This document shows, piece after piece, positions 7,479 to 22,824 of a stretch of 39,316 nucleotides of DNA. The DNA lies in the NCBI GenBank assembly GCA_944388245.1, contig CALXIA010000020.1, positions 1 to 39,316 of the forward strand. The letters run 5' to 3'. The notes beneath the pieces were generated by a model. It saw only the letters and a list, made by a program, of their open reading frames with translations, was not told the DNA's origin and ran no database searches. The position numbers and the translations under genes were made by a program. The first letter of the stretch is position 1. The number at the start of each line of letters is the position of its first letter. Source of the DNA: an uncultured Gemmiger sp. (lineage in GTDB: Bacteria; Bacillota; Clostridia; Oscillospirales; Ruminococcaceae).

Positions 7479-8349
7479 GTTTCTTTCTCCAGAAAGGTTG
7501 TTTCTTTATCTTTTTCTCTGTCTCGGGCGGCAGGATCTCCTCCATGAGCAGGTTGAACAGATTCTGCCGGTCCAGCCGGCGGATCAGCACCCCGTTCTTG
7601 GCCAGGGAGATGATGCCGGTCTCCTCGCTGACCACCACGATCACCGCGTCGGAGTTTTCGCTCATGCCCAGCGCCGCCCGGTGCCGGGTGCCCATGTCCT
7701 TGCTGATCTCCAGGTTGTTGGACAGGGGCAGCACACAGCCCGCCGCTTTGAGCACCCCGTCCCGGATGACCACCGCCCCGTCGTGCAGAGGGGTTCCCTC
7801 GTAGAAGACGGTGCCCAGCAGCTCCAGGGTCACATCGGCGTTGATCAGGGTGCCGGTGCGGATGATCTCGGACAGGTTGATGCCCCGCTCCATCACGATC
7901 AGACCGCCGGTGCGCTCCTCGCTGAGCTGCTCGGCCGAGTCGCACACCGCCACGATGGCGTTTTTCCAGGTGGCCCGCACGGTGGCGTCGTCGTTGCGGT
8001 GCATCCGGAACAGATTGCCGGCCCATTGGTCGGTGCGGCCCACCTGTTCCAGTGCGCGGCGGATCTCCGGCTGGAAGATGACCACCAGGGTCAGCAGACC
8101 GATCTGCAGCACGTTCTGCAGCAGATAAGCCACCGTGCGGAACCGGAAGGTATCCGCCACCGCGTAAACCGCCAGCAGCAGCAGCGCGCCCCGGGCCAGC
8201 TGACCCGACCGGGTCTTGCGCACCAGGTTCAGGATCCCATAGACCACCAGGGCCACGATCAAAATATCCAGCACGTCCCGCAGGTCGCTGGCCCGCAGGT
8301 TGCTGATAAAATCAACGACAAGGTTGTTCTGCAAAATCTGGCTGAACAA
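7465..8349 (-). CDS. cdaA: CdaA diadenylate cyclase (membrane-bound, DAC domain)
   Basis: CdaA condenses two ATP into c-di-AMP, the messenger that controls potassium and osmolyte balance and cell-wall homeostasis. Three hydrophobic segments at the N-terminus (about 20-100) anchor a cytoplasmic DAC domain containing the DGA motif (LHDGAVVIRDG) and the RHR motif (GTRHRAALG). The frame could open further upstream, but a clean AGGAGG lies 6 nt before a TTG at 8349 (product starts (M)FSQILQNN, 294 aa), which matches the family N-terminus; the 21 upstream residues look like leader. The promoter is at 8399-8426. It is the first gene of the operon. Confidence 0.93.
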   Translation of the reverse strand: MFSQILQNNLVVDFISNLRASDLRDVLDILIVALVVYGILNLVRKTRSGQLARGALLLLAVYAVADTFRFRTVAYLLQNVLQIGLLTLVVIFQPEIRRALEQVGRTDQWAGNLFRMHRNDDATVRATWKNAIVAVCDSAEQLSEERTGGLIVMERGINLSEIIRTGTLINADVTLELLGTVFYEGTPLHDGAVVIRDGVLKAAGCVLPLSNNLEISKDMGTRHRAALGMSENSDAVIVVVSEETGIISLAKNGVLIRRLDRQNLFNLLMEEILPPETEKKIKKQPFWRKKHEKV

Positions 8350-9672: not shown

Positions 9673-9691
9673 GACCGGCCGCCCCCGGACG

Positions 9692-9732
9692 AAAAATGCC
9701 CCGGAAGGGCGTCAAAGCACTCCTCCGGGGCA
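9692..9732 (-). terminator. Rho-independent terminator of the M20 amidohydrolase gene
   Basis: On the minus strand a 9-bp perfect stem, TGCCCCGGA (9697-9705 pairing with 9724-9732), is followed by TTTTT. It begins 5 bp after the stop codon. Confidence 0.8.
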
Positions 9733-9737
9733 CAGGA

Positions 9738-10916
9738 TCAGGCATGCGCCAGCAGCCAGTTGGCCGCACAGCCCGCCAGCACCGCCGCACCCAGCGGCAG
9801 CACATCCTCGTTAAAGACGATGGCGGGATGGTGCGAGCCCGCCCGGTTGTAGATCTCCTCCGGGCCGCCCGCGCCGATCCCCATGAACACCGACGGCACC
9901 TGCTGGGTGACCTCCGCGAAATCCTCGCTGCCCATCTGACGGGGCAGCTGCTCCATCCGGTCGGCAATGCGGGCGGTGTAGCCCGCCAGTTCCCGGGCCA
10001 GTTCCGGCTGGTTGTGCAGCGAAGCCACCCCTGCCAGGAACTCCACCTCGCAGCTGCCCCGGAAGGAGGCGGCCACCCCCTGGCAGATCTCCACCAGCCG
10101 GCGGCGGGCCAGGGCCCGGTTCTCGTTGGAAAAGGCCCGGATACTGCCCTTCATCTCCACCATTTCCGGGATGGCGTTGTGCAGCTGCCCCCCGTGGATG
10201 GTGCAGACGGTGAGCACCAGCGGGTCCTGCGGGTCCACCTCCCGGGCGTTGACCTCCTGCAGCGCCAGCAGGATATGGGCGGCAATGTTGATCGGGTCCA
10301 CCGCGTTCTGCGGGATGGCGCCGTGGCCGGCCTTGCCCTTGACCAGGATGCGGAAGCTGTCGGAAGAGGCCAGTGCCGGCCCCTCCCGCCAGGCCAGGGT
10401 GCCCACATGCATCGGTCCCGGGAAAACATGCAGCGCCAGCGCCGCGTCCACCGGCGGGTCCTGCAGGATGCCCGCCGCCACCATGGCGGCCGCCCCTTTC
10501 AGGTTTTCCTCCGCCGGCTGGAACATCAGCTTGACCCGGCCGGGCAGTTCCTTCTCATGGTTTTTCAGCAGCGCGGCGGCGCCCAGCAGCATGGCGGTGT
10601 GCAGATCGTGGCCGCAGGTGTGGGCGCAGGGGCCGCAGGCGGCAAAGGGCAGGCCGCTCTCCTCCCGCATCTCCAGCGCGTCCATATCGCCCCGCAGCAG
10701 GAACACCGGCCCGTGCTGCGGCCCGATACAGGCGGTCACGCCGCCGCCCACCCGGCGGGGTTCCAGCCCCAGCGCCCGCAGCTTTTCCTCCACAAACGCG
10801 GTGGTGCGGGGCAGATCCATCCCCAGTTCCGGCATCTGGTGCAGCGCGCGCCGGTTCTCCACCAGAACAGAGCGCATCTGCCGCGCCTGCTCATACAACA
10901 GTTCCATCTCCAGCAT
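9738..10916 (-). CDS. M20-family amidohydrolase (N-acyl-amino-acid deacylase type)
   Basis: A zinc-type amidohydrolase of the HipO/AbgB/N-acetylcysteine-deacetylase branch, 392 aa from the chosen start. Metal and catalytic motifs are GDMDALEM (Asp77, Asp79), CGHDLHTAML (Cys101, His103), QPAEEN (Glu136-Glu137), a central ALHVFPG histidine, and a C-terminal GSHHPA histidine, with a small dimerisation domain in the middle. Such enzymes release the acyl group from N-acyl amino acids or split aminobenzoyl-glutamate. Start: the frame is open to 11027, but AAAGG lies 9 nt before the ATG at 10916, and the -24/-12 promoter at 10966-10982 lies inside the longer frame, excluding the long form. It is divergent from the sigma-54 activator and probably controlled by it. 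The true substrate is unknown; the neighbours suggest N-acyl-cysteine derivatives. Confidence 0.9.
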   Translation of the reverse strand: MLEMELLYEQARQMRSVLVENRRALHQMPELGMDLPRTTAFVEEKLRALGLEPRRVGGGVTACIGPQHGPVFLLRGDMDALEMREESGLPFAACGPCAHTCGHDLHTAMLLGAAALLKNHEKELPGRVKLMFQPAEENLKGAAAMVAAGILQDPPVDAALALHVFPGPMHVGTLAWREGPALASSDSFRILVKGKAGHGAIPQNAVDPINIAAHILLALQEVNAREVDPQDPLVLTVCTIHGGQLHNAIPEMVEMKGSIRAFSNENRALARRRLVEICQGVAASFRGSCEVEFLAGVASLHNQPELARELAGYTARIADRMEQLPRQMGSEDFAEVTQQVPSVFMGIGAGGPEEIYNRAGSHHPAIVFNEDVLPLGAAVLAGCAANWLLAHA

Positions 10917-10965
10917 CGTTTTCATCCTTTCAGCGGGTGGTGTACGTTCTTCCAATACAAAAACA

Positions 10966-10982
10966 AGCAAGTTCCATGCCAA
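10966..10982 (-). promoter_or_regulatory. Sigma-54 (-24/-12) promoter for the M20 amidohydrolase
   Basis: The minus strand reads TTGGCATGGAACTTGCT, differing from the consensus TTGGCACGNNNNTTGCT only at one position (T for C), with the GG and GC pairs exactly 12 bp apart. The expected transcription start is about 40 bp before the ATG at 10916. It lies 83 bp from the start of the sigma-54 activator gene. Confidence 0.85.
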
Positions 10983-11000
10983 CCGCCAAACCGGGTCTTC

Positions 11001-11030
11001 TTGACAGGCAAAGCCGCCCCATGCCATAAT
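11001..11030 (+). promoter_or_regulatory. Sigma-A promoter of the sigma-54 activator gene
   Basis: TTGACA (11001-11006), an 18-bp spacer and CATAAT (11025-11030) lie 35 bp before the ATG. This suggests housekeeping expression of the regulator, independent of sigma-54. Confidence 0.7.
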
Positions 11031-11065
11031 GAAACAGGCGAAATTGGCGAAAAAGAGGTGCTTAT

Positions 11066-13117
11066 ATGGATAAACGGCTGGCGATCATCACCTGGGACGC
11101 GGGCGCTGTGGAGCTCTACGCCCGGCAGGTGCGGGAATTTCTGGGCGATGATCTTCCCATTGACACCTACAGTATGCAGCAAGCGGCCGGGCCGATCCGG
11201 CCTGCCGATGTATACCTGGTATCCACCTGTGCCTTTTCCGACCGGGATATCAGCCAGCTGCTGCCCAGCCGCGGGCCGGTGGTGATCAGTGAGGTGCGGA
11301 TCCCCCGGGCCGGGCTGGCCAAGCTGCTGGACATTCCGCGGAACACCCAGGCGCTGCTGGTGAACATCAACAAATCCATGACCAACGAGACCATCGCTAC
11401 CCTGAACCAGCTGGGTGTGACCAACATCCAGTTTACCCCCTACTATCCCGGCGCGCCGGAGCCGGCCCATCTGCCGCTGGCCGTGACCACCGGCGAGCGG
11501 CGGCATGTGCCCGATTGGGTCCGGGAGATCATCGATCTGGGGCCACGGATGCTCAGCGGCAACACCTTTATTGAGTTGGCTCACCAGCTCAAGCGGGAGA
11601 GCGCGCTGGACCATCCCCGGTTCAAGACCTATCTGGCCTCGCTGGCCGAGCAATCGTACAGCATTGAGCGGATGCTGCAGCGCTCGGTGCAGGTGGAAAG
11701 CCTGTTTGACCTGTTCCAGCAGGCGCTGGATTCGGGATTGATCGGGGTGGATGAGGAAGGGGTGATCTCCGCTTGCAGCCCCAAGGCGGTGGATATCCTG
11801 GGCATCCCGCTGGACCAGCTGGTGGACCGGCAGGCCCAGGACGTGCTGGCCTTTCTGCCCTTTGCCGAAAGCCTGGCCGGGCACAAAACCATCCACAGCC
11901 GGCTGGTGGAGATCCGGGGCAATCCGGTATCGGTGAGCATCCATCCCTTTTTCCGGGACAACAACCTGACGGCGGCTTTCTGCATCCTGCAGCAGTTCCG
12001 AGACGAGGAGCGCCGCCAGCAGAAGATCCGCCGGCAGATTCTGGGCAAGGGCCATGTGACCAAGTACACCTTTGACAGCATCGTGGGGGAGAGCGCCGCC
12101 ATGCGCAGCGCCAAGGCGCTGGCCCGCAAGATGGCCGCCAGCAACGCCTCCATTCTGATCACCGGAGAGAGCGGCACCGGCAAGGAGATGTTCGCCCACG
12201 CCATCCACGCGGTCAGCCCCCGGGCGCAGGAGCCTTTTGTGGCCATCAACTGCGCCGCCATCCCGGATTCGCTGCTGGAAAGCCAGCTGTTCGGCTATGA
12301 GGAAGGGGCCTTCACCGGGGCCAAGCGGGGCGGCCATATCGGCTTCTTTGAGGCGGCCCGCAGCGGCACCCTGCTTCTGGACGAGATCGAGGCCATGAGC
12401 CCCATGCTGCAGGTCAAGCTGCTGCGGGTATTGCAGGAGAAGGAGATCGTGCGGCTGGGCGGCACCGACGTGATCCATGTGGACGTGCGGATCATCGCCG
12501 CCTCCAACGTGGACCTGCCCGCCATCGTACATCAGGGCAACTTCCGCAAGGACCTGTTCTACCGGCTGTGTGTGCTGCCCTTGCAGCTGCCCCCGCTGCG
12601 GGAGCGCGGGCAGGATGTGCTGCTGCTCTTCACCCGCATCCAGGAGGGCATCGGATCCCATTTTCAGCTGTCCCCCGCCGCCCAGCAGATCCTGCTGCAC
12701 CACCCCTGGGAGGGCAATGTGCGGGAACTGCGCAACTGTGTGGAGTACCTGGCCTATCTGGAAAAGCCGGTGATCCAGCCGGAGGATCTGCCCCCCACCC
12801 TGTTTGCCCCGGCGCGCGCCATCGACCCGCCGGTTGCCGCCGCGGACGGCCAGACCGCCCTGGCCCTGCGCCGGCAAGCCGGGCCGGACCTGCCGCTCTA
12901 CCTGTTCGTTCTGGAACAGCTGGCCGGCAGCCCCTCGCTGGGGCGCAAGGCCCTGGCGGACCGGGCACGCCAGCGCGGGGTGGCCCTTACCGAACCGACC
13001 GCCCGCACCATTCTGGCTCAGCTGGAGCGTCTGGAACTGGTGCAGGCGCGCAAGGGCCGGGGCGGGACCCACATTACTCCGTTGGGCCAAACCATTTTCA
13101 CCAGTTTACATGGATAA
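11066..13117 (+). CDS. Sigma-54-dependent enhancer-binding transcriptional activator
   Basis: A 683-aa activator of sigma-54 RNA polymerase. An N-terminal sensory region (about 1-180, with [14 protein letters not shown] and FTPYYPG) precedes a PAS-like domain (about 207-310). A AAA+ domain (about 335-560) carries Walker A GESGTGKE (367-374), the sigma-54-contacting loop GAFTGA (414-419), Walker B LLLDE (436-440) and the arginine-finger region FRKDLFYR. The C-terminus (about 609-683) lacks a visible Fis-type helix-turn-helix and instead resembles a winged helix ([10 protein letters not shown]...[16 protein letters not shown]...). The ATG follows GAGGTG. It is placed between two transcription units that each have a -24/-12 promoter, so it is almost certainly their activator. 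Clostridial cysteine-desulfidase genes are known to be sigma-54-dependent, which fits. The effector is unknown, perhaps cysteine or a conjugate. Confidence 0.93.
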
Positions 13118-13162
13118 TGGGTGAATATATGGCGTTTCTGCGCGCCTGTTTTTAACCTTTTT

Positions 13163-13216
13163 CTGCGGATGAACCTTCTTGCCGGGTTCATCCGCAGTAT
13201 TTTTCTGTTATTTTTT
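13163..13216 (+). terminator. Rho-independent terminator after the sigma-54 activator gene
   Basis: A 13-bp perfect stem, CTGCGGATGAACC (13163-13175) with GGTTCATCCGCAG (13185-13197), is followed by two T-rich runs. It isolates the activator transcript from the downstream operon. Confidence 0.9.
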
Positions 13217-13246
13217 CAACGAACCTCACAAAGATTCTTTTTCTGC

Positions 13247-13275
13247 TTTGTGCAATCCAACTATTTTTGCGCAAA
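13247..13275 (+). promoter_or_regulatory. Candidate upstream activator sites for the sigma-54 activator
   Basis: TTTGTGCAAT (13247-13256, near-palindrome) and TTTGCGCAAA (13266-13275, perfect palindrome) start 19 bp apart and lie 32-60 bp before the -24/-12 promoter. Position and pairing suit an enhancer for a sigma-54 activator. No clear second copy was found in front of the M20 gene. Confidence 0.4.
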
Positions 13276-13306
13276 CCGACCATCCTTTTGCAGTTCCTTT
13301 GCAGAT

Positions 13307-13323
13307 TTGGCCCGCTTCTTGCT
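13307..13323 (+). promoter_or_regulatory. Sigma-54 (-24/-12) promoter of the patB-abgT-M24-CoADR-cysteine desulfidase operon
   Basis: The sequence TTGGCCCGCTTCTTGCT matches TTGGCACGNNNNTTGCT at every fixed position but one, with GG and GC correctly spaced. Transcription should begin near 13335, about 58 bp before the ATG of the beta-lyase gene. Confidence 0.88.
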
Positions 13324-13392
13324 TTGGTAAACACGGAACATCATGAAAGCGCCTGCTGGTGCTTGCTGTGCGAGATAGAAGGAGATGACACG

Positions 13393-14577
13393 ATGCAGTA
13401 TGATTTCAATCGTCCCATCGACCGGTGGAACAATTTTGCCGCCAAGTACGATGAGATGGAGAAAAACTTCGGCCGCCGGGACCTGATCCCCATGTGGATC
13501 GCGGACATGGACCTGATGACCGCCCAGCCCATTCTGGACGCCATCGACGCCCGCAACCGGCAGGGCATTTTCGGATACACCAGCCGCCCGGCCTCCTATT
13601 TTGAGGCGGTCTGCCAGTGGCAGGAAAAGCGCAACGGCTGGAAACCCGATCCGGAGATGTGCCTGTTCACCCTGGGGGTCGTGCCCGCTTTGTGCACCTT
13701 TGTGCGGGAGTATTCCCGGCCCGGCGACGAGATCCTGTTTGACACCCCGGTGTACGGCGAATTTTTTGAGTCGGTGGAGAACTGGGGCCGCAAGCCGCTG
13801 ACCGTGCCTCTCAAGGAGGAAAACGGCTACTACTCGATGGACTTTGAGGCCTTTGAGGAGGCGCTCAAACGCCGCCCGCCGCTGTTCATCCTCTGCAATC
13901 CCCACAACCCGGTGGGCCGTGCCTGGACCCGCGAGGAACTGCGCCGGATGGGCGAGTTGTGCGTGCAGTACGGCACCCTGATCATCAGCGACGAGATCCA
14001 CAGCGATCTGATGCTGTTTGGCCACAAGCATATCCCGATGGCCACGGTGAGCGAGGAGATCGCCGCCCACACCATCACCTGCACCTCCGCCACCAAGACC
14101 TTCAATCTGGCGGGCCTGCAGGCCGCCACCCTGATCTTCCCCAACGCGGAGCTGCGGGACATCTACCAGAAGTTCTGGAAATCCATGGACGTGCACCGGA
14201 ACAACTCCTTCAGCCTGGTGGCGGTGGAGGCGGCTTTCCGGTACGGCGAGGAGTGGCTGGATCAGCTGCTGGCCCATCTGGAGAGCAACGTGCTCTATGT
14301 GGAAAACTATCTGCGGGAGAACATCCCTGAGATCACATTCCGTCGGCCGGAGTGCACCTACCTGCTCTGGCTGAACTGCAAGGCCCTGGGCCTTGCGGGG
14401 GACGCGCTGCCCCAGTTCATGATCAACGAGGCCCATCTGGCGCTGAACGACGGCCGGGGCTTCGGCAAGGCCGAGGGTGAGGGCTATATGCGAATGAACA
14501 TCGCCTGCCCCCGCGGCACGGTGGAAAAGGCCATGGCCCAGCTCAAAGCGGCCGTGGACCGGAAGATGGGCCGCTGA
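13393..14577 (+). CDS. patB: PatB/MalY-type PLP-dependent C-S beta-lyase (class I/II aminotransferase fold)
   Basis: A 394-aa pyridoxal-phosphate enzyme. The family N-terminus is clear (YDFNRPIDRW, then IPMWIADMD), followed by the NPHNPVGRAW loop, the PLP-contacting ISDEIH (Asp200), and the Schiff-base lysine in TSATKTFNLAG (Lys235). MalY/PatB members cleave the C-S bond of cystathionine and S-substituted cysteines into pyruvate, ammonia and a thiol; the same fold can also transaminate, so the reaction is inferred from the close N-terminal match and the sulfur-related neighbours. The frame is open from 13267, but the longer form would include the -24/-12 promoter, and the ATG at 13393 has GAAGGAGA in place. 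It is the first gene of the sigma-54 operon. Confidence 0.9.
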   Translation: MQYDFNRPIDRWNNFAAKYDEMEKNFGRRDLIPMWIADMDLMTAQPILDAIDARNRQGIFGYTSRPASYFEAVCQWQEKRNGWKPDPEMCLFTLGVVPALCTFVREYSRPGDEILFDTPVYGEFFESVENWGRKPLTVPLKEENGYYSMDFEAFEEALKRRPPLFILCNPHNPVGRAWTREELRRMGELCVQYGTLIISDEIHSDLMLFGHKHIPMATVSEEIAAHTITCTSATKTFNLAGLQAATLIFPNAELRDIYQKFWKSMDVHRNNSFSLVAVEAAFRYGEEWLDQLLAHLESNVLYVENYLRENIPEITFRRPECTYLLWLNCKALGLAGDALPQFMINEAHLALNDGRGFGKAEGEGYMRMNIACPRGTVEKAMAQLKAAVDRKMGR

Positions 14578-14658
14578 CACGCCGGCCCTTCCCTCAGTCT
14601 CGCTTTCTTCACGGGTACGAAGAAACGACGGATACATCTTATGTTAGGAGGAACCCTC

Positions 14659-16221
14659 ATGGCAAAAAACAAATCCGCGGCCAAAGAAAAGAAGGGCTTC
14701 GTGGTGCGCGCGCTGGACGCGATCGAGCGTGCCGGCAACGCGCTGCCCAGCCCGGCCACCATCTTCCTGGTTCTGACCATCGCGGTCATGATCATCTCGG
14801 CTATCTGCGCCAGCCTGGGCGTGTCGGTGACCTATGAAACCATCGACACCGCCAACGGCAACCAGATCGTGGAGACCACCGTCAGCGCCGTGAACCTGCT
14901 GTCGGTGGAGTCGATTCGGCATCTGGTCACCACCATGGTGTCCAACTTCACCTCCTTCTTCGCCCTGGGCACGGTGTTCACCATCATCCTGGGCGTGAGC
15001 GTGGCCGACGGCTCCGGCATGCTGAGCGCGCTGCTGCGCAAGGCCGCCAAGTCCGCCCCCCGCAGCCTGGTCACCGCCATGGTGGTGTTCCTGGGCATTA
15101 TGTCCAACATCGCCTCCTCCACCGGCTATGTGGTGCTGGTGCCCCTGGGCGCGATCCTGTTCATGGCGTTTGGCCGCCATCCCATCGCGGGCCTGGCCGC
15201 CGCGTTCGCGGGCGTGTCCGGCGGCTGGAGCGCCAACCTGCTGATCGGCACCAACGATCCCATGTTCGCGGGCATGTCCACCCAGGCCGCCAATATGCTG
15301 GATCCCAACTATGTGGTGTCTCCCCTGTGCAACTGGTTCTTCATGTTCGCCTCCACCTTCGTGATCACCGCCATCGGCACCTTTGTGACCGACAGGATCG
15401 TGGAGCCTCGTCTGGGCAAGTATGAGGGCGCCGTTGAGACCGACAGCGCCGACCTGACCGCCGAGGAAAAGCGCGGCCTGCGGTTCGCCGGCATCGCCGC
15501 CCTGGTGTACATCGTTCTGATCCTGATCGCGGTGGTGCCCACCAACGGCCTGCTGCGCAGCGAGACCGGCGGCTTTTTGTCCAGCCCCTTCATGAGCGGC
15601 ATCATCTTTATCATGATGCTTCTGTTCCTGATCCCCGGTATCGCCTTCGGCCTGGGCGCGGGCACCATCAAGAACGACAAGGACGTTGTGGAACTGATGA
15701 CCAAGGGCATCTCCGGCCTGGCCGGCTTTATGGTGCTGATCTTCTTCGCGGCCCAGTTCACCAGCTTCTTCACCTATTCCAATCTGGGCACCATCCTGTC
15801 GGTGGCCGGCGCCAACTTCCTGGAGAGCATCGGCTTTGTGGGCCTGCCGCTGATCATCGCCCTGATCATCCTGACCGCCATCATCAACCTGTTCATCGCC
15901 GTGGACTCCGCCAAGTGGGCCATTATGGCGCCGGTCTTTGTGCCCATGTTCATGCGGCTGGGTATGTCCCCGGAGTTGACTCAGGCGGCCTACCGCATCG
16001 GTGACTCCTGCACCAACATCATCGCCCCCACCATGCCCTTCTTCGTGCTGACGGTGGCGTTCTTCCAGAAATACGACAAGAAGGCCGGCATCGGCACCGT
16101 GGTCTCCACCATGCTGCCCTACTCGCTGTGCTTCCTGCTGGGCTGGATCGCACTGTTCATGGTGTGGTATCTGCTGGGCCTGCCTCTCGGCCCCGGCTCC
16201 CCCATGTTCTACCCTGCCTGA
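14659..16221 (+). CDS. AbgT-family membrane transporter
   Basis: A 520-aa polytopic membrane protein with about 11-13 hydrophobic segments. Family hallmarks are a cytoplasmic N-terminus leading into ALDAIERAGNALPSPATIF, the SNIASSTGYVVLVPLGA segment, AAAFAGVSGGWSANLLIG, and near the end DSAKWAIMAPVFVP with DSCTNIIAPTMPFF. Escherichia coli AbgT imports p-aminobenzoyl-glutamate for the M20 hydrolase AbgAB; other members have been described as antimetabolite exporters. The nearby M20 enzyme under the same kind of promoter favours import of an N-acyl amino acid or peptide-like substrate. The ATG at 14659 follows TAGGAGGA; an in-frame ATG at 14641 has no such site. It lies 81 bp after the beta-lyase gene. 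Confidence 0.88.
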   Translation: MAKNKSAAKEKKGFVVRALDAIERAGNALPSPATIFLVLTIAVMIISAICASLGVSVTYETIDTANGNQIVETTVSAVNLLSVESIRHLVTTMVSNFTSFFALGTVFTIILGVSVADGSGMLSALLRKAAKSAPRSLVTAMVVFLGIMSNIASSTGYVVLVPLGAILFMAFGRHPIAGLAAAFAGVSGGWSANLLIGTNDPMFAGMSTQAANMLDPNYVVSPLCNWFFMFASTFVITAIGTFVTDRIVEPRLGKYEGAVETDSADLTAEEKRGLRFAGIAALVYIVLILIAVVPTNGLLRSETGGFLSSPFMSGIIFIMMLLFLIPGIAFGLGAGTIKNDKDVVELMTKGISGLAGFMVLIFFAAQFTSFFTYSNLGTILSVAGANFLESIGFVGLPLIIALIILTAIINLFIAVDSAKWAIMAPVFVPMFMRLGMSPELTQAAYRIGDSCTNIIAPTMPFFVLTVAFFQKYDKKAGIGTVVSTMLPYSLCFLLGWIALFMVWYLLGLPLGPGSPMFYPA

Positions 16222-16237
16222 TCCTCTCAAACCGCAA

Positions 16238-16276
16238 AAGACTGCGTGCCGCCTGCGCGCAGTCTTCTGCGTTTTT
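16238..16276 (+). terminator. Intra-operon terminator-like hairpin after the AbgT gene
   Basis: AAGACTGCG (16238-16246) pairs perfectly with CGCAGTCTT (16258-16266), followed by CTGCGTTTTT. I see no promoter between it and the M24 gene, so it more likely causes partial termination than a true end of the operon. Confidence 0.65.
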
Positions 16277-16321
16277 CACAATTCAACCGGCCCGCGCGGG
16301 CCAGAAACCGGAGGTAACCCT

Positions 16322-17503
16322 ATGCTCCCTAAAGAAGGCCGTATCAAAGAACTGCTCCGCCGCCAGGGTCTGGACGGCGCCATCGTTTCCTCGCCGGAAA
16401 ATTTCCACTACGTCACCGGCTTTGCCGGCCATCAGCACACCGTATCCCGCCAGCCGGGCTTTACCCTGGCGGTGATGAGCGCCCGGGACGACGTGCCCAC
16501 CCAGCTGACCACCATGGACTTTGAGGTGCCCACCTTTGAAAAGAAGAGCGCCGGGCGCTTCATCGTGCGCAAGTACGACACCTGGGTAGGGGTCAAGACC
16601 TGGGATGAGATCGCCCACGGCGCGGTGGTGCCCGCGCCGGACAAGATGGAAAATTCCTCGGATCTTCTGAACAAGATGGTGCGGGAGATGGACCTGGCCG
16701 ACAAGAAACTGGGCCTGGAACTTGACTATCTGCCCCTGAACTACTACAATTCCCTGTGCAAACTGTTCCCTGAAGCGAAGTTTGAAAACATTTCGGAGAT
16801 GTTCGTCTACGCCCGCAGCGTCAAGACGCCCGAAGAGATCGAGATGTTCCGCACCCTCTGCCGGGCCGCTGACGAGGGCTTTACCGCCGTGAGCCGCATC
16901 GCCCGCCCCGGCGTGAGCGAGCGGGAACTGGTGCAGGAGTTCCGCCGCACGGTGATCGCCACCGGCAAGGCGGCCCCCAGCGCCTGGTCCATGTTCTCCA
17001 CCGGCGAATCCGGCTCCCGGCTGACCCTTCCCGGGGACGCGGTGATCCAGAAGGGGGACGTGGTCAAATTTGACGCCGGCGTAAACGCCGAGTTTGACTT
17101 CTACACCACCGACACCTCCCGCGCCTGGGTCATGGACGGCGCCGATCCGGCCCTGTACAAGCTGAAAGACCGGCTGTACGAGGCCCAGCGCCGGATGATC
17201 GCCGCCGCGAAACCCGGCCTGCCCATCTGCGATCTCTACCATATCGCCTACGATTATGTGAAGGAGATGTACCCCAGCTACCGGCGCGGCCATCAGGGCC
17301 ACAGCATCAGCATGGGCCCCGCCACCGCCGAAGCGCCCTACATCAACCCCACCACCACCCGTCCGCTGGAGGCCGGCATGATCCTGGCCATGGAGGTGCC
17401 CTGCTACATCGGCGGGGTGCAGGGCTTCAACATTGAGGACATGGTGCTCATCACCCCGGACGGCTGTGAGGTGCTCACCCCGCAGACTCCGCATTATCTC
17501 TGA
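16322..17503 (+). CDS. M24-family metallopeptidase (Xaa-Pro dipeptidase/aminopeptidase type)
   Basis: A 393-aa cytoplasmic pita-bread peptidase. The N-terminal creatinase-like domain spans about 1-160. The catalytic domain has all five metal ligands: Asp251 (KFDAG), Asp264 (TTDTSR), His327 (HQGHSIS), Glu358 (AMEVP) and Glu372 (NIEDM), so a two-metal active site is expected. Members usually hydrolyse dipeptides or N-terminal residues next to proline, but the fold also includes creatinase-like and other hydrolases. GGAGG precedes the ATG. The place in the sigma-54 operon suggests it frees an amino acid, perhaps cysteine, from a small peptide; that is inference. Confidence 0.88.
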   Translation: MLPKEGRIKELLRRQGLDGAIVSSPENFHYVTGFAGHQHTVSRQPGFTLAVMSARDDVPTQLTTMDFEVPTFEKKSAGRFIVRKYDTWVGVKTWDEIAHGAVVPAPDKMENSSDLLNKMVREMDLADKKLGLELDYLPLNYYNSLCKLFPEAKFENISEMFVYARSVKTPEEIEMFRTLCRAADEGFTAVSRIARPGVSERELVQEFRRTVIATGKAAPSAWSMFSTGESGSRLTLPGDAVIQKGDVVKFDAGVNAEFDFYTTDTSRAWVMDGADPALYKLKDRLYEAQRRMIAAAKPGLPICDLYHIAYDYVKEMYPSYRRGHQGHSISMGPATAEAPYINPTTTRPLEAGMILAMEVPCYIGGVQGFNIEDMVLITPDGCEVLTPQTPHYL

Positions 17504-17527
17504 TTTGAGAAAGGCAAGGTACATACT

Positions 17528-19222
17528 ATGAAGATTCTGATCGTAGGCGGTGTGGCCGGCGGCGCCGGCTGTGCGGCCCGGTTGCGCCGGAACGACGAAA
17601 ACGCGCAGATCATCCTGTTTGAAAAGGGGGAATTCATCTCCTTCGCCAACTGTGGTCTGCCCTACTACATCGGCCAGGTCATCACCGACAAGGCCGAGCT
17701 GCAGCTGCAGACCCCCGAGGCGTTCCACGCCCGGTTCAACGTGGACGTTCGGGTGTGCCAGGAGGTCACCGCGGTGGACAGTGCCTCCAAGGTGGTGACG
17801 GTGCTCAACCACGCCACCGGTGAAACCTATACCGAAAGCTACGACAAGCTGGTGCTCTCGCCGGGCGCGTCCCCCATCCGTCCGCCTTTCCCGGGTATTG
17901 AGAAAAACCATGTGTTCACTTTGCGCAACATCCCGGACACCTACGCCATCTACGATTACATCGAGCAGGCCCGTCCCCGCACCGCCGCGGTGATCGGCGC
18001 CGGCTTCATCGGCCTGGAGATGGCCGAAAACCTGGCCGACCGGGGGCTGGCCGTGTCCATCGTGGAGGCGGCCCCCCACGTAATGGCGCCGCTGGACACC
18101 GATATGGCCCACATGGTGCACAACCGCATCCGGGCCGCCGGCATGGGGCTGTACATCGACCGCAAGTGCGCTGGCTTCACCGAGAACGGGGTGCTGCTGG
18201 AGGGCGGCGATGTGGTGCCCGCCGATATGGTGATCCTGTCCATCGGCGTGCGGCCCGAGACCCGCTTTTTGCAGGACAGCGGCGTAGAACTGGGCGCCCG
18301 GGGCGAGATCCTGGTGGACGAACAGCTGCGCACCAGCGTGCCGGACATCTTCGCGCTGGGCGACGCGGCCACCGTGCGCAATCTGGTCAGCGGCCGCCAG
18401 CAGGTGATCCCTCTGGCCGGCCCCGCCAACAAGCAGGCCCGGATCGTGGCCGACGTGATCTGCGGCAAGGACGCCCGCTACAAGGGCAGCATCGGCACCT
18501 CGGTCATGAAGTTCTTTGAGATGACGGTGGCCACCGCCGGCGAAAAGGAAGAGAGCCTGAAGGCCGCCGGCACCCCCTACCGCAAGACCTTCACCGTTTC
18601 CTCCAGCCACGCGGGCTATTACCCCGGCGGCACCCAGATGATCGTCAAGCTGCTCTACAGCCCGGAGGGCCGGGTGCTGGGCGCCCAGATCGTGGGCGGC
18701 GAAGGGGTGGACAAACGAATCGACACCCTGGCTGTGGCCATCCGGTTTGGGATGACCGTGTCGGATCTGGCGGAGATGGAACTGGCCTACGCGCCGCCCT
18801 TCTCCAGCGCCAAGGATCCGGTGAACATGGCGGGCTTTGTGGCCGAAAACGTGCTGGCGGGGACCATGACCCCCTTCTTTGTGGACGAGATCGACGCCAT
18901 CCCGGAGAACGCGGTGCGCCTGGACGTGCGCAATCCGGAAGAACTGGCAACCCTGGGCAGCATCCCCGGCTTTGTGAATATCCCGCTCAACCAACTGCGC
19001 AGCCGGCTGGATGAGGTGGATCTGACCCGGCCGGTCTACGTGACCTGCCAGGTGGGCCTGCGTGGATATGTGGCCGCCCGCATCCTGGCCCAGCATGGCG
19101 CGCAGGTGTACAACCTGTCCGGCGGCTACACCCTGTACGCCAGCCGGATGAAGGATCTGGCCGGGCAGGGCGAAACGGCGGACAAGAACTGTGCCGCCTG
19201 CGGTATGCAGACCAAGGGATAA
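17528..19222 (+). CDS. CoA-disulfide/persulfide reductase with C-terminal rhodanese domain (CoADR-RHD)
   Basis: A 564-aa flavoprotein. The N-terminal FAD site is VGGVAGGAGCAARLRR, followed by the single redox cysteine in SFANCGLPYY (Cys42), which forms a mixed disulfide with CoA in this family. The NAD(P)H motif is VIGAGFIGLEMAENL and the second FAD motif is IFALGDAA. A dimerisation domain (about 330-450) leads to a rhodanese domain (about 465-540) with the active-site loop CQVGLR (Cys507). The tail ends in NCAACG (Cys555, Cys558), an extra CxxC. Relatives reduce CoA disulfide, persulfides or polysulfide with NAD(P)H. In this operon it would handle the sulfane sulfur or mixed disulfides made by the beta-lyase and desulfidase. 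Confidence 0.92.
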   Translation: MKILIVGGVAGGAGCAARLRRNDENAQIILFEKGEFISFANCGLPYYIGQVITDKAELQLQTPEAFHARFNVDVRVCQEVTAVDSASKVVTVLNHATGETYTESYDKLVLSPGASPIRPPFPGIEKNHVFTLRNIPDTYAIYDYIEQARPRTAAVIGAGFIGLEMAENLADRGLAVSIVEAAPHVMAPLDTDMAHMVHNRIRAAGMGLYIDRKCAGFTENGVLLEGGDVVPADMVILSIGVRPETRFLQDSGVELGARGEILVDEQLRTSVPDIFALGDAATVRNLVSGRQQVIPLAGPANKQARIVADVICGKDARYKGSIGTSVMKFFEMTVATAGEKEESLKAAGTPYRKTFTVSSSHAGYYPGGTQMIVKLLYSPEGRVLGAQIVGGEGVDKRIDTLAVAIRFGMTVSDLAEMELAYAPPFSSAKDPVNMAGFVAENVLAGTMTPFFVDEIDAIPENAVRLDVRNPEELATLGSIPGFVNIPLNQLRSRLDEVDLTRPVYVTCQVGLRGYVAARILAQHGAQVYNLSGGYTLYASRMKDLAGQGETADKNCAACGMQTKG

Positions 19223-19237
19223 AAGGAGCGAAAGATC

Positions 19238-20524
19238 ATGCTGGACCGTACTGTTTATGATACTTATGTGCGCATTTTGAAGCGGGAACTGGTGCCAGCG
19301 CTGGGCTGCACCGAGCCCATCGCCATCGCGCTGGCGGCCGCCAAGGCCCGTCAGGCCCTGGGCGAGGAGCCCCGCACCCTGCGGGTGCTGTGCAGCGGCA
19401 ACATCATCAAGAACGCCAAAGGGGTGATCGTGCCCACCACCGGCAATATGCGCGGCATCGACACCAGCGCTGTGCTGGGGGCGCTGGCCGGCGACCCGGA
19501 CCTGGGCCTGGAGGTGCTGAGCAAGGTGACCCCCGCCGATCTGGAGGCCACCCGCGCCATGCTGGACAAACATGTGTGCACGGTGGAACTGCTGGACACC
19601 CCCTCCCGGCTGCACATTATCGTGGAGATCACCGGCGACCACCACACCGCCCTGGCGGAGATCCGGGACGAGCACACCAACATTGTGCGGGTGGAACGGG
19701 ACGGCGAGCGGCTGTTCTACAAAGAGGTGGAACAGACCCAGGATGACGACGCGGCCGAGGCCGACCTGGACGCGCTGAACCTGGCCGACATTCTGGAATT
19801 CGCCAACACGGTGGATCTGGAGGATATTCGCCCGACCATCCGCCGGCAGATCGAATACAACACCCGCATCGCCCAGGAGGGCCTGACCCACGCCTACGGC
19901 GGCCGGGTGGGCGCCACCCTGATGCGGCATTACGGCGGCGACGTGCGGGTACGGGCCCGGGCGCTGGCCGCGGCGGGCAGCGACGCCCGTATGGGCGGCT
20001 GCGTGCTGCCGGTGGTGATCAACTCCGGCAGCGGCAACCAGGGCATCACCTGTTCGGTGCCCATCATCGTGTATGCCAAGTACCTGTCCGCCCCGGAGGA
20101 TGTACTCTACCGGGCGCTGGTGCTGAGCAACCTGACCGCCCTGCTGCAAAAGCGGGGCATCGGCCGGCTGTCCGCCTTCTGCGGCGCGGTGTGCGCGGCC
20201 TGCGGCAGCGGCGCGGGCATCACCTACCTGCACGGTGGCGACTACGACGCCATCAGCCGCACCATCACCAACACCCTGGCCAATGCCTCCGGTATCGTCT
20301 GCGACGGCGCCAAGGCCAGCTGCGCCGCCAAGATCGCCACCTCGGTGGACGCGGCGATCCTGGGCCACGAGATGTCGATGGACGGCAACACCTTCGGCGC
20401 CGGCGAAGGGCTGGTAAAGGAAAATGTGGAAAAGACCATTGCCAATATCGGCAAGATGGCCGCCGAGGGTATGCGGGAGACCGATACCGAGATCCTGCAC
20501 CTTATGATCGACCAAACCTGCTGA
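19238..20524 (+). CDS. cyuA: L-cysteine desulfidase (CyuA/YhaM, UPF0597 family)
   Basis: This 428-aa protein matches the family known to split L-cysteine into sulfide, pyruvate and ammonia with an iron-sulfur cluster. The N-terminal signature ELVPALGCTEPIAIALAAA is present, followed by SGNIIKNAKGV. Likely cluster cysteines lie in the second half (GITCSVPI; FCGAVCAACGSGAGI; KASCAAKIA). Older annotation calls it a serine dehydratase-like protein, so serine is an alternative substrate. GGAG precedes the ATG, 15 bp after the reductase gene. It is the last gene of the sigma-54 operon, before a strong terminator. Linkage to a C-S lyase and CoADR-rhodanese supports cysteine rather than serine. Confidence 0.9.
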   Translation: MLDRTVYDTYVRILKRELVPALGCTEPIAIALAAAKARQALGEEPRTLRVLCSGNIIKNAKGVIVPTTGNMRGIDTSAVLGALAGDPDLGLEVLSKVTPADLEATRAMLDKHVCTVELLDTPSRLHIIVEITGDHHTALAEIRDEHTNIVRVERDGERLFYKEVEQTQDDDAAEADLDALNLADILEFANTVDLEDIRPTIRRQIEYNTRIAQEGLTHAYGGRVGATLMRHYGGDVRVRARALAAAGSDARMGGCVLPVVINSGSGNQGITCSVPIIVYAKYLSAPEDVLYRALVLSNLTALLQKRGIGRLSAFCGAVCAACGSGAGITYLHGGDYDAISRTITNTLANASGIVCDGAKASCAAKIATSVDAAILGHEMSMDGNTFGAGEGLVKENVEKTIANIGKMAAEGMRETDTEILHLMIDQTC

Positions 20525-20559
20525 GTGCCTTTTGCACCTCCTCACCTATCTCTATGGCG

Positions 20560-20587
20560 AAGGCCGGACCCGTTTGGGTCCGGCCTT
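20560..20587 (+). terminator. Terminator between the cysteine operon and spo0A (convergent)
   Basis: AAGGCCGGACCC (20560-20571) pairs with GGGTCCGGCCTT (20576-20587) around a four-base loop. A T-rich stretch follows on the plus strand. It can serve both converging units, better on the plus side. Confidence 0.75.
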
Positions 20588-20594
20588 TGTCGTT

Positions 20595-21344
20595 TCAGCC
20601 GATGCGCTGCTTCTTATCCAGCCGCATCCGGTCCGCGATCATGGCGATGAATTCCGAATTGGTGGGCTTGCCCCGCAGATTGTGGATGGTGTAACCGAAA
20701 TACATGTTCAGGGTATCCACATCCCCCCGGTCCCAGGCCACCTCGATGGCGTGGCGGATGGCCCGCTCCACCCGGCTGGCGGTGGTGTTGTTCATCTTGC
20801 CGATCTCGGGATACAGCCGCTTGGTCACCGCGTTGATGTACTCCGGATCGGCCATGGTCAACAGGATCGCGTCCCGCAAAAACTTGTACCCCTTGATGTG
20901 GGCCGGCACCCCGATCTGGTGCAGGATCTCGGTAACCGCCGCCTCATCGTTGTCCACCATCACGTGAGGCCGCGGCGCCATGCCCGCCGCCCGCATCACC
21001 CGGGCCGCCAGCACCGTTTCATCAAACGGCTTGACAAAATAAAAGGAGAATCCGCTCTCCAGCAATTCCTGCTCCAGATCCTCGTTGCGGAAATTGCCGG
21101 TGACGAAGAACACGGTGTTGCCGCCGCCCGCCGCCGCGTACCGCTGCTTGACCGCCAGCGCGTCCAGCCCCGGCATAAAGGCTTCCAGCAGCACCGCCCG
21201 GGGCCGCTGTTCCAGCAGGCAGCGCAGCGCCGCCTCCCCGTCCCGTTCACAGACCGAAACCTCCACGCCCTTTTGCTCCAACGCGTTGCGGCACGCCTCG
21301 GTGGCCGCGCCGATGTCCGTCATCAAAAATCGAATTTTTTCCAT
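20595..21344 (-). CDS. spo0A: Spo0A-type sporulation response regulator with an altered receiver domain
   Basis: Master regulator of sporulation, 249 aa from the ATG at 21344, which has GGAGGAG 6 nt upstream. The C-terminal DNA-binding domain is clear and well conserved (GVPAHIKGYKFLRDAI, LYPEIGK, TTASRVERAIRHAIEVAW, GKPTNSEFIAMIADRMR). The receiver domain (1 to about 118) keeps the switch Thr (FVTGN) and the Lys of VKPFD. However, the phosphoacceptor aspartate is Glu54 (LLEAFMPGLDAL; codon GAA at 21183-21185), and the acidic pair at the metal site is only Asp10-Ile11. Phosphorylation by a normal phosphorelay therefore looks unlikely, and the Glu may mimic the phosphorylated state. It is divergent from an XRE-TPR regulator, and spoIVB, its usual upstream neighbour, lies beyond that gene. 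Confidence 0.93.
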   Translation of the reverse strand: MEKIRFLMTDIGAATEACRNALEQKGVEVSVCERDGEAALRCLLEQRPRAVLLEAFMPGLDALAVKQRYAAAGGGNTVFFVTGNFRNEDLEQELLESGFSFYFVKPFDETVLAARVMRAAGMAPRPHVMVDNDEAAVTEILHQIGVPAHIKGYKFLRDAILLTMADPEYINAVTKRLYPEIGKMNNTTASRVERAIRHAIEVAWDRGDVDTLNMYFGYTIHNLRGKPTNSEFIAMIADRMRLDKKQRIG

Positions 21345-21397
21345 TGTCTTCTCCTCCATTAGTTCTCCGTTGCGGCGGATTTCCTTGCCTGGAGTAG

Positions 21398-21426
21398 ATT
21401 TTACCAGTTATTTCCAATTTGTGCAA
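21398..21426 (-). promoter_or_regulatory. Sigma-A promoter of spo0A
   Basis: On the minus strand TTGCAC (21421-21426) precedes TAAAAT (21398-21403) by 17 bp. The leader to the chosen ATG is about 47 bp. I found no good sigma-H promoter. Confidence 0.7.
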
Positions 21427-21560
21427 TAGATTCCAAATTTTTCCTGCGATTTTTTCTCGACACAAACCGTCAACACCGTCCGGTTTTCGTCTTTCCTCGC
21501 CCGCGTTGGGTCGAAACGGCAAAAAAACGGGCACAAAATTTTTGCGCCGCAGCCCAGCCA

Positions 21561-21592
21561 ACTTGCTGTTTCGGCAACCTGACTTGCCGTTT
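21561..21592 (+). repeat. Direct repeat, candidate operator of the XRE-TPR gene
   Basis: ACTTGCTGTTT (21561-21571) and ACTTGCCGTTT (21582-21592) differ at one base and begin 21 bp apart, two helical turns, ending 6 bp before the -35. A GGCAA...TTGCC inverted pair overlaps them. Confidence 0.5.
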
Positions 21593-21598
21593 GCGTCC

Positions 21599-21627
21599 TT
21601 GTTGTCTGGCTGGCAAGCCTGTATACT
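21599..21627 (+). promoter_or_regulatory. Sigma-A promoter of the XRE-TPR gene
   Basis: TTGTTG (21599-21604), 17 bp, TATACT (21622-21627); the ATG follows 64 bp later. Confidence 0.65.
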
Positions 21628-21691
21628 GGCATTGAGGAAACAGGCGGCCGCCGGTTCCCAGGAACAATTCTGCTGTACGGAGGAATGAACG

Positions 21692-22741
21692 ATGAACCCT
21701 ACGCTTGGAACCAAAATCAAACAGCTGCGGCTGCAAAAAGGCGTCACCCAGGAGGCCATGGCCAAAGCTCTGCATATTTCCTGCCAAACGGTAAGCAAGT
21801 GGGAAAACGACGTCTCGATGCCGGATATTCAGCTTTTGCCGCCGATCGCGGTCTACTTTGGCTGCCGGATCGACGATCTGTTTGACTTTTCGGAGCAGGC
21901 CCAGTTCGACCGCATTGCCCACATGCTGGAGATGCAGGAGACACTGACCGCCGAGGAATATCGTCAGGCCGAACTGTTTTTGAAAGGGCGGCTGGAAGAA
22001 GAAGGGGCGCGAAGCGATGCCCTGCGGCTTTTGGCGGAACTGTTCAACCACCGGGCTGACGCCTGGCGAAGAACGGCCGAATTCTACGCCCGGGAAGCCC
22101 TGGAGCGGGAACCGGAGGTCAAGCAAAACCACGACAACCTGCGCCGGGCGCAGGAAGGGACGGTGCCGGACTGGAGCTTTGCCAACCACAGCCGGCGCAT
22201 TGCCTATTACCAGCAGTTTGTGCGCTGCCATCCCGCGTATACAAGCGGGTATTTGTGGCTGCTGGACGAACTGCTTGCGGATGGCCGTCTGGAGGAAGCA
22301 CAGACCGTCTGCGATACGCTGCAGCGGCAGGACCACAGTTGCCGTGCCGCCTTTTACCAGGGCAGAATCTGCTGGCAACGGGGCGACCGGGATACCGCGC
22401 AGGCAGTCTGGGACCAGATGCTGACAGAACACAGCGACGACTGGCTGGCCTTCGCCTGCATGGCGGATGCCATGGCCGGCGCCTGCCGCTACGACGAGGC
22501 CCTTCAATACGCGCGCAAAGCACAGCAGCTGCAACCCTCTCCCAAATATGTCGATGCGCAGGTGGTCGCGGCGCAGATCCATGAGATCCGCAAAGACTAC
22601 GAACAGGCGATCGAAAGCCGCCGGGAACAACTGGCCTTGTTGAAACAGGAGTGGGGCCTTACCGAAGGGCAGGATGTGGATTTTGTTCTCCGTGAGATCG
22701 ACCGGCTGCGCCAAGCGCAGGAGAAACAGCTGCGGCCATGA
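21692..22741 (+). CDS. XRE-family helix-turn-helix regulator with C-terminal TPR-like repeats
   Basis: A 349-aa cytoplasmic regulator. Residues about 6-65 are a typical XRE helix-turn-helix (GTKIKQLRLQKGVTQEAMAKAL, then TVSKWENDVSMPDIQLLPPIAVYFG). The rest is helical with tetratricopeptide-like units (for example LLDELLADGRLEEAQTVCDTL, FYQGRICWQRGDRDTAQAVWDQML and ADAMAGACRYDEALQYARKAQQLQP). This architecture recalls regulators in which a TPR domain binds a peptide or partner protein, but I see no linked signal-peptide gene. CGGAGGAA precedes the ATG. It lies between spo0A and spoIVB, divergent from the first and convergent with the second, so it looks like a later insertion into the usual sporulation pair. 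Its target is unknown. Confidence 0.88.
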   Translation: MNPTLGTKIKQLRLQKGVTQEAMAKALHISCQTVSKWENDVSMPDIQLLPPIAVYFGCRIDDLFDFSEQAQFDRIAHMLEMQETLTAEEYRQAELFLKGRLEEEGARSDALRLLAELFNHRADAWRRTAEFYAREALEREPEVKQNHDNLRRAQEGTVPDWSFANHSRRIAYYQQFVRCHPAYTSGYLWLLDELLADGRLEEAQTVCDTLQRQDHSCRAAFYQGRICWQRGDRDTAQAVWDQMLTEHSDDWLAFACMADAMAGACRYDEALQYARKAQQLQPSPKYVDAQVVAAQIHEIRKDYEQAIESRREQLALLKQEWGLTEGQDVDFVLREIDRLRQAQEKQLRP

Positions 22742-22787
22742 TCTCGTGTTCGCAGACGTCAGATTGTCTTTTTTCAAAACAAACACA

Positions 22788-22824
22788 GGCCCACACCGCC
22801 TTACTGCCGGTGTGGGCCGTTTTC
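22788..22824 (+). terminator. Terminator between the XRE-TPR gene and spoIVB (convergent)
   Basis: GGCCCACACCG (22788-22798) pairs perfectly with CGGTGTGGGCC (22808-22818), followed by GTTTTC. On the other strand a T-rich run also follows, so it probably works in both directions. Confidence 0.8.

Follow-up and report, generated by a model that had tools for sequence, protein, structure and literature searches.

Cysteine is an important source of hydrogen sulfide in the gut, and the literature searched has little on the transporters and switches by which Oscillospiraceae and Lachnospiraceae break it down. In E. coli, AbgABT combines the transporter AbgT with an M20D hydrolase of two subunits, is under LysR control and acts on p-aminobenzoyl-glutamate. 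The enhancer-binding protein (EBP) XcyR is predicted to target malY-pepT-hyp, labeled "peptide degradation" (Nie, Dong and Yang 2019, PMC6615313), so that a sigma-54 EBP would control malY (PatB-type) and pepT in Clostridioides, Clostridium, Flavonifractor, Geosporobacter and Lachnoclostridium. In C. difficile, sigma-54 (SigL) and the EBP CdsR turn on the cysteine desulfidase CdsB, with H2S as product (PMC5767170). The body-odor route of S. hominis imports a blocked cysteine conjugate and uses an M20-type peptidase (PepV) and a PatB C-S lyase (PMC11742315), and the B. subtilis scm/yxe operon recovers cysteine with an M20 N-acetylcysteine deacetylase (PMC12757645, PMC9706529). Here we analyze a stretch of 39,316 nucleotides from an uncultured Gemmiger sp. 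(assembly GCA_944388245.1, contig CALXIA010000020.1), called the window, in which genes for an M20 hydrolase, PatB, an AbgT-family transporter, an M24 peptidase, a CoA-disulfide reductase with rhodanese domain (CoADR-Rhd) and a cysteine desulfidase (CyuA) surround one EBP gene. The locus resembles each of these systems in part; from AbgABT it differs in its control, its single hydrolase gene and its likely substrate. We consider it fairly probable, from gene content and comparison of loci, that the locus is an acquired sigma-54-controlled island for the catabolism of cysteine-derived organosulfur compounds, most likely ending in hydrogen sulfide, ammonia and pyruvate.

The core of the cluster is inherited together

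An earlier note on this DNA, made from the letters alone, had placed six enzyme or transporter genes around one sigma-54 activator. All seven genes were recovered, at the positions given and in their proposed families, by Pfam, TIGRFAM and PDB matches (Table 1). Two AbgT peptide patterns, run against the genomes of named species, turned up 211 stretches with a relative, of which the best 80 were kept. In 37 of these (L084-L119, L121) the AbgT was at least 55% identical to that of the window, and in 43 it fell below. PatB lies directly upstream of AbgT in 27 of the 37. Co-occurrence of the genes elsewhere was a check set beforehand, and among those 27 PatB-AbgT loci, counting only loci with enough sequence, the EBP was found in 22/22, M24 in 24/24 and CoADR in 24/24. 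The 43 distant loci gave no EBP, PatB, M24, CoADR, M20 or CyuA match at 1e-10, some of their contigs being short; one held a weak DAACS match. Among the hosts of the cluster are Fournierella, Gemmiger, Pseudoflavonifractor, Anaerotruncus, Angelakisella, Enterocloster and other Lachnospiraceae, Lutispora, Geosporobacter and Alkaliphilus, and many of the contigs are metagenome-assembled genomes. The tblastn matches came in several pieces in L101 and L095 (EBP), L101 and L087 (M24) and L101 (CoADR), which suggests frameshifts in these drafts.

Presumed catalytic positions are conserved across the loci compared. PatB K235 is kept in 27/27, the reductase C42 and rhodanese C507 of CoADR-Rhd in 24/24, M24 residues D251, D264, H327, E358 and E372 in 23/23, and M20 residues C104, H106, E140 and H166 in 12/12, with H366 in 9/12 (N in three). 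CyuA C24, C315, C355 and C362 are kept in 10/10 and align with cysteines of 9he0, named "L-cysteine desulfidase". We take the M20 positions, aligned with YxeP, to be the metal site and the M24 positions to be ligands; the roles of these residues and of the four CyuA cysteines are presumed, in part from alignments. PDB relatives of PatB are 4dgt, 6qp3 and 9k71. The AbgT start is most likely 14659, judged from an AGGAGGA resembling a ribosome-binding site at 14646-14652; membership in AbgABT was rejected on score (438.7, against the cut-off of 864 for the AbgT equivalog NF008459). CoADR scored 499.4 bits against the TIGR03385 equivalog, under its cut-off of 578.8, and matched CoADR-RHD 3icr (E 2.3e-172) and the E. 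faecalis CoA-persulfide reductase 8a56 (E 1.1e-152). The latter enzyme (CoAPR) belongs to the CoADR-Rhd family and needs C42 and C508 (PMC9405070). The best PDB match of M20 is YxeP/ScmP, a specific N-acetylcysteine deacetylase (PMC12757645); the window's M20 is a relative of this enzyme by sequence.

The activator has an N-terminal sensor (weakly PrpR_N-like), a PAS domain, an AAA+ domain and a C-terminal DNA-binding part, and the Walker A lysine and the F and T of GAFTGA are kept in all 21 EBP rows compared. We take the C-terminal part, which no model matched, to be winged-helix-like from its sequence. A model of residues 1-200 gave an alpha/beta domain with a pLDDT (predicted local distance difference test) of 89. 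In a fold search with the sensor alone no PDB match came under E 0.001, and the best matches, including the NtrC-family regulator 2q5c (E 3.6e-3) and PrpR 2pju (1.8e-2), were weak, so "PrpR_N-like" is only a lead. The matches listed for sensor plus PAS (50 rows) were mostly PAS domains. No Pfam family matched the window's sensor; ten families gave matches, none of them in more than two of the 24 members, with a best E of 1e-4. The modeled N-terminus is probably a small-molecule sensor. This type of EBP is rare: the N-terminal part matches in 11 of 148 family genomes, six at 1e-60 or better, and at 1e-20 a 7-row EBP profile finds a match in 31 of 391 class genomes. When named genomes were scanned with the N-terminal part, no relative was confirmed.

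Predicted sigma-54 promoters are conserved in relatives

The earlier note had also given both flanking units -24/-12 promoters, and sites were found at 10982-10966 (reverse strand) for M20 and 13307-13323 (forward strand) for the PatB operon. Since the likely M20 start is 10925 (the listed open reading frame, from 11027, overran its own promoter), the first site lies upstream of its gene. Sites were scored against TTGGCAT-N5-TTGCT, after Nie 2019 (PMC6615313). For the pattern TGGCM-N6-TTGCT, 0.25 matches were expected in the window and three were found, the one besides the two promoters (8289-8304) lying inside another gene. TGGCAY-N5-TTGCT with one mismatch allowed also gave three against 1.68 expected, a count that 19 of 100 shuffles reached and that is not above chance. 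Exact TTGGCMY-N5-TTGCT occurs three times in the whole 1.97-Mb assembly, as does a reversed control pattern, so that the number of sites is chance-like; all three precede M20, PatB and a second PatB (in a PatB-DAACS-RidA operon described below). The case for both predicted promoters is carried by their position and by conservation in relatives. The best site upstream of PatB scored 9-12/12 in 25/25 loci (the window and 24 named; 23 at 10 or more, two at 9), the best site upstream of M20 9-12/12 in all 12 testable loci, window included, and that upstream of CyuA in the sister cluster described below 11-12/12 in 6/6. At a score of at least 9, the controls gave 1/25 for the reverse strand of PatB regions, 0/28, 1/27 and 5/24 for the 300 nt before AbgT, M24 and CoADR, and 83/1480 for random segments of the same loci, true sites possibly among them. 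Since there is no conserved site before M24 (the 1/27 being a 9/12 match), we assume readthrough past the stem-loop between AbgT and M24. RpoN is encoded in the window's genome (G000:C16:12232, 158 bits). A sigma-70-like site precedes the EBP gene and a strong terminator-like stem follows it, so that this gene is probably transcribed separately from its targets.

Among upstream regions, the half-site AA[AT]TGGT was found in 33/52, an enrichment that is unproven as an enhancer, and the 7-mer AATTGGT in 22/52, whereas none of the five shuffle lists shown had more than 8, a statistic that ignores relatedness. One exact AA[AT]TGGT lies in the window's two regions, upstream of the PatB-operon promoter at -217. 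A search for exact dyads gave only A/T-rich matches or matches between near-identical genomes.

The cluster is absent from two close relatives

By blastn the window is collinear with L172 (G127) and L173 (G008), from two genomes of the same genus; the alignment stops at 9685/9696 and resumes at 20593, where the Spo0A gene ends, and the ~10.9 kb between is absent from both. At the junction each relative has about 70-80 nt that do not align with the window; ispDF and spo0A are spaced ~180 bp apart, with proteins 91% and 97-98% identical to the window copies. A further genome (G137) has the same cluster at another site (L019), its own ispDF and spo0A being ~200 bp apart. Insertion in the window's lineage would be the simpler reading, compared with loss in the relatives. 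The GC content of the island does not depart from its surroundings. The genes downstream of the EBP run from 13393 to 20524 with gaps of ~15-100 bp and one stem-loop; CyuA, the fifth of them, begins 15 bp after CoADR and lacks a -24/-12 site nearby. G137 (L019) and Fournierella massiliensis DSM 100451 (L084), which has the whole island, were taken as one, as were G201 (L064) and Lutispora thermophila (L103).

A sister cluster keeps the activator and lyase with other partners

In six loci (L020-L024, L079), CyuA is divergent from EBP-PatB-DAACS symporter-RidA and stands behind its own sigma-54 site, with DAACS and RidA where AbgT-M24-CoADR would stand. RidA fits the release of 2-aminoacrylate by a C-S lyase. 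The symporter of L020 had four NCBIfam matches, all below cut-off and none a cystine-transporter model. We built midpoint-rooted trees from 31 PatB rows and 30 EBP rows (L091, L095, L096, L101, L104, L108 and L112 left out of both, L088 dropped from the EBP tree). The six sister loci group with the Lachnospiraceae-type AbgT clusters (100/99 for PatB, 100/100 for EBP), apart from the Oscillospiraceae AbgT clusters. On a Lutispora-Geosporobacter-Alkaliphilus group the two trees disagree, PatB placing it beside the Oscillospiraceae clusters (99/98) and EBP with the two remaining groups (89/89). We read this as a swap between AbgT-M24-CoADR and DAACS-RidA, in one direction or the other, next to a constant EBP-PatB, so that both modules should feed PatB. 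The comparison supports one predicted regulon for cyst(e)ine-type compounds.

The window's genome has a second PatB-DAACS-RidA operon (G000:C25:24001-32765; L249 5084-8765), 83-90% identical to that of L020. Its symporter matches PF00375, and it has a -24/-12 site with AACCAATTAACCAATTTT 165 bp upstream, containing the half-site ACCAATT twice. Unlike the six relatives, it has no EBP before PatB on a contig that ends ~600 bp past the promoter; in its place is what we take to be the end of an EF-Ts gene. At PF00158 E 1e-25 or better, the assembly has one strong EBP, that of the island, and it has one CyuA. Because this EBP is the only strong one and none stands at the second operon, it may also serve that operon; a second, unassembled EBP is possible at 75% completeness. 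By the same threshold there is a single EBP, that of the sister cluster, in G025 (99% complete) and in G020 (98%), while G008 and G127 each have two and G137 has three. Of 148 family genomes, 21 have an RpoN match above the Pfam cut-off and 16 one above 100 bits; the 16 include all six genomes with the EBP type at 1e-60 or better, which come from three genera and are not independent. In G020, rpoN (PF04552, PF04963, PF00309) starts directly behind the sister-cluster cyuA (L020 12129-13412). Genomes with a single strong activator, with this one case of rpoN beside a likely target, are simple natural sigma-54 systems, and the cluster offers one testable regulator, one AbgT transporter clade and a portable unit that can be scored in genomes. 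Tentatively, and with somewhat less than an even chance of being right as a whole, we propose that the AbgT clade imports cyst(e)ine derivatives, that several gut Oscillospiraceae keep sigma-54 almost solely for cysteine-sulfur catabolism, that an exchangeable EBP-PatB head with swappable AbgT-M24-CoADR or DAACS-RidA modules makes its hosts inducible sulfide producers, and that the island EBP may drive the second operon.

A proposed route and its alternatives

In the route that we infer, the activator would be a one-component protein made from its sigma-70-type promoter, and a thiol-related ligand would bind it as inducer and lead, through sigma-54 in vivo, to the opening of the promoters of M20 and PatB-AbgT-M24-CoADR/Rhd-CyuA. 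AbgT would then bring in a blocked or oxidized cysteine compound (a cystinyl or cysteinyl peptide, or an N-acyl-cyst(e)ine), from which M24, plus M20 where present, would free the amino acid. Beta-elimination by PatB would yield pyruvate, ammonia and a thiol, or a persulfide if the substrate is a disulfide. CoADR-rhodanese, using CoA and NAD(P)H, would reduce the persulfide or disulfide, and CyuA would convert cysteine to pyruvate, ammonia and sulfide. Given how close CoADR-Rhd is to 3icr and 8a56, a reaction on a persulfide or disulfide is likely, and we therefore put a disulfide substrate first.

Several observations weigh against this reading. PatB is absent from nine of the 37 AbgT loci (L098, L099, L109, L113, L114, L115, L117, L118, L121), and L107, cut off upstream, has M24 but lacks CoADR over 10 kb. 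Of the PatB-AbgT loci with enough sequence, M20 is present in 11/18 and missing in 7/18, and CyuA is adjacent in 8/22 and not adjacent in 14/22, with a ninth adjacent copy (L089) just below the length limit; both are accessory to the core. The stepwise cysteine route of the earlier note therefore stands in part: the unit is co-inherited, its sigma-54 sites are conserved and its theme is cysteine and C-S chemistry, whereas the N-acyl step and desulfidation within the set depend on these two accessory genes, and the importer role is assumed. The N-acyl or peptide nature of the substrate is presumed. Among 20 EBP regions from class-wide and order-wide searches, PatB lies beside the EBP in six (L064, L068, L069 with one gene between, L070, L074, L079) and not in 14. 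L114 has an AbgT-CyuA operon without M20 or M24, which would allow free cyst(e)ine, and not a blocked form, to be the cargo of AbgT. The island lacks RidA, which one would expect alongside a lyase that releases 2-aminoacrylate; the genome's other PatB operon has it. Some members of the AbgT family are named efflux pumps (TIGR00819), the search for an enhancer in the window singled out none, and the assembly (1.97 Mb) is 75% complete. Finally, the similar YkuR showed no N-acetylcysteine deacetylase activity, so that 35-50% identity to ScmP is no guarantee of function (PMC12757645).

The strongest alternative, unlikely in our judgment and still serious, is dissimilation of free cystine or cysteine: AbgT would carry cyst(e)ine, PatB would act on cystine to give cysteine persulfide, CoADR-Rhd would reduce it and CyuA would finish, M20 and M24 being side activities. 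The L098 and L114 operons, which have AbgT and CyuA without an EBP, tie the AbgT clade to cysteine. That of L098 (4186-11842) has two CyuA copies, M20, a YfcC-type transporter and a TSCPD-domain protein (TIGR03905); that of L114 (5058-8285) has a small TSCPD-domain protein (PF12637), and a PatB-like fragment (34%) is found about 4.5 kb from it, where the contig begins. The DAACS symporter that the sister cluster has instead of AbgT, the divergent CyuA behind a sigma-54 site in all six sister clusters and the constancy of CoADR-Rhd in the core also favor free cyst(e)ine. The constancy of M24 in the core points instead to a hydrolyzable substrate, to which the AbgT-M24 pairs without PatB (L115, L117, L121) also tie the AbgT clade, and the below-cut-off matches of the L020 symporter include no cystine transporter. 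The two lines pull apart, which is why this alternative keeps its weight.

A salvage of S-substituted cysteines (mercapturates, Cys-Gly S-conjugates, S-alkylcysteines), with import, deblocking by M20/M24 and thiol release by PatB, is in our view doubtful. The PatB relatives 9k71 and 8y54 are named cysteine-S-conjugate beta-lyases, and the S. hominis body-odor route runs through transporter, dipeptidase and PatB (PMC11742315). Such a salvage would have no need for CoADR-Rhd or CyuA; moreover, ScmP does not deacetylate N-acetyl-S-(2-succino)cysteine, and the island has no monooxygenase or acetyltransferase, unlike the B. subtilis S-alkylcysteine clusters (PMC12757645).

Less probable again is a detoxification set in which AbgT would serve as the exporter of toxic thiols or sulfonamide-like compounds. 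CoADR-Rhd would suit persulfide stress (PMC9405070), and AbgT matches the TIGR00819 antimetabolite efflux transporter at 567.6 bits, which is under the cut-off of 753.55; catabolic enzymes dominate the island, and a symporter family takes this place in the sister cluster. An AbgABT-like use of p-aminobenzoyl-glutamate or of dipeptides in general, with PatB and CyuA as passengers, is most improbable: AbgT does stand with an M20 enzyme, and 3io1, "aminobenzoyl-glutamate utilization protein", is among the M20 PDB matches, but PatB and CoADR are more constant than M20 across loci, and there is a single M20 gene where we take AbgABT to have an AbgA/AbgB pair.

Other loci and features

Some related loci differ from the core. 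L099, L109 and L113 (around 9968-11551) have a same-clade AbgT without PatB or M24; L099 has an EBP-like gene (42%) beside it on the other strand, and in L109 and L113 AbgT is followed by what we take to be an amidohydrolase-like gene and an amino-acid-type ABC transporter. Among the more distant EBP-PatB pairs, the -24/-12 site is good in L074 (11/12), poor in L068 (7/12) and absent in L070, and L069, with a long gap, was unscored. The L070 pair adjoins a CoADR-like gene (34%); L074 presumably has a D-cysteine-desulfhydrase-like neighbor and L069 an NhaC-like transporter. Beside the cluster in L064 (11974-19018) lie a second EBP and what are presumably chemotaxis-receptor-like, tryptophanase-like beta-eliminating lyase and aldehyde-dehydrogenase-like genes. 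Lutispora (G201) has no CyuA in the cluster and two CyuA relatives elsewhere in its genome. We also surveyed two open reading frames on each side of CyuA at the best 40 places outside its own genome, from the 88 of 391 genomes with a match (a lower-ranked G517 place being substituted for two others). The neighbors were mostly unrelated genes, with DAACS-like genes at 3/40 places, an EBP at 4/40 and AbgT at 0/40.

Table 1. Features of the island, with positions in the window
Feature	Position	Strand	Basis or remark
Island, ~10.9 kb	9686..20592	none	between ispDF and spo0A; ends approximate (alignment stops)
M20D amidohydrolase, 395 aa	9738..10925	-	PF01546/TIGR01891; best PDB match YxeP/ScmP 1ysj
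-24/-12 site for M20, TTGGCATGGAACTTGCT	10966..10982	-	12/12 consensus letters
Sigma-70-like promoter for EBP gene, TTGACA-18-CATAAT	11001..11030	+	11/12; consensus scan only
Sigma-54 enhancer-binding activator, 683 aa	11066..13117	+	PF00158 227 bits; GESGTGKE, GAFTGA
Terminator-like stem 3' of EBP gene, 14 pairs, strong	13163..13197	+	terminator-like-site scan
Candidate enhancer (upstream activating sequence), CACAAAG-N12-CTTTGTG, unproven	13227..13252	none	not seen as such in other regions
-24/-12 site for PatB operon, TTGGCCCGCTTCTTGCT	13307..13323	+	10/12 consensus letters
PatB/MalY-type pyridoxal-phosphate C-S beta-lyase, 394 aa	13393..14577	+	TIGR04350 457.8 bits, cut-off 340
AbgT-family transporter, 520 aa	14659..16221	+	PF03806 641 bits
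Stem-loop between AbgT and M24	16238..16266	+	terminator-like-site scan
M24 metallopeptidase, 393 aa	16322..17503	+	PF00557 and PF01321
CoA-disulfide/persulfide reductase with C-terminal rhodanese, 564 aa	17528..19222	+	TIGR03385, PF00581
L-cysteine desulfidase homologue, CyuA/CdsB type, 428 aa	19238..20524	+	PF03313; 9he0 E 1.6e-21
Long inverted repeat, AAGGCCGGACCC-GTTTG-GGTCCGGCCTTT	20560..20589	none	read from sequence; outside the terminator-like set of the scan

The inverted repeat may perhaps be a common end of the CyuA and Spo0A transcripts. Beyond it, at 20595-24053, lie Spo0A (TIGR02875 above cut-off), with the island on its ispDF side, and a HTH-TPR gene, followed by a gene that we take to be SpoIVB-type.

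Comparison with known systems

To our knowledge, the B. subtilis scm/yxe operon has no PatB, AbgT or sigma-54 control. It differs from the island also in its acetyltransferase, monooxygenase and ABC transporter (PMC12757645, PMC9706529). The available part of the S. hominis report names no CoADR-Rhd or desulfidase (PMC11742315). In C. difficile, cdsB has its own promoter and a CuyP-type transporter was looked for without success, whereas the island CyuA is the last gene of an operon (PMC5767170); the cdsB trait of a desulfidase with its own sigma-54 promoter is missing at the window's CyuA and present in 6/6 sister clusters. The XcyR regulon table names no AbgT, CoADR-Rhd, M20 or CyuA (PMC6615313). 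The EBP-PatB pair of our cluster is found in Geosporobacter ferrireducens (L106) as well, Geosporobacter being one of the genera listed for XcyR (PMC6615313), and XcyR is likely the same as the island EBP.

Among the titles and abstract openings listed from open-licence literature, we found no paper that describes the gene set as one pathway, and the earlier note knew of none; the XcyR target malY-pepT-hyp and the CdsR-cdsB circuit do precede it (PMC6615313, PMC5767170). We conclude that the gene parts are known and that their combination is a new variant among the known sigma-54 regulons of cysteine and C-S catabolism, set apart by the island, its exchangeable modules and its AbgT clade.

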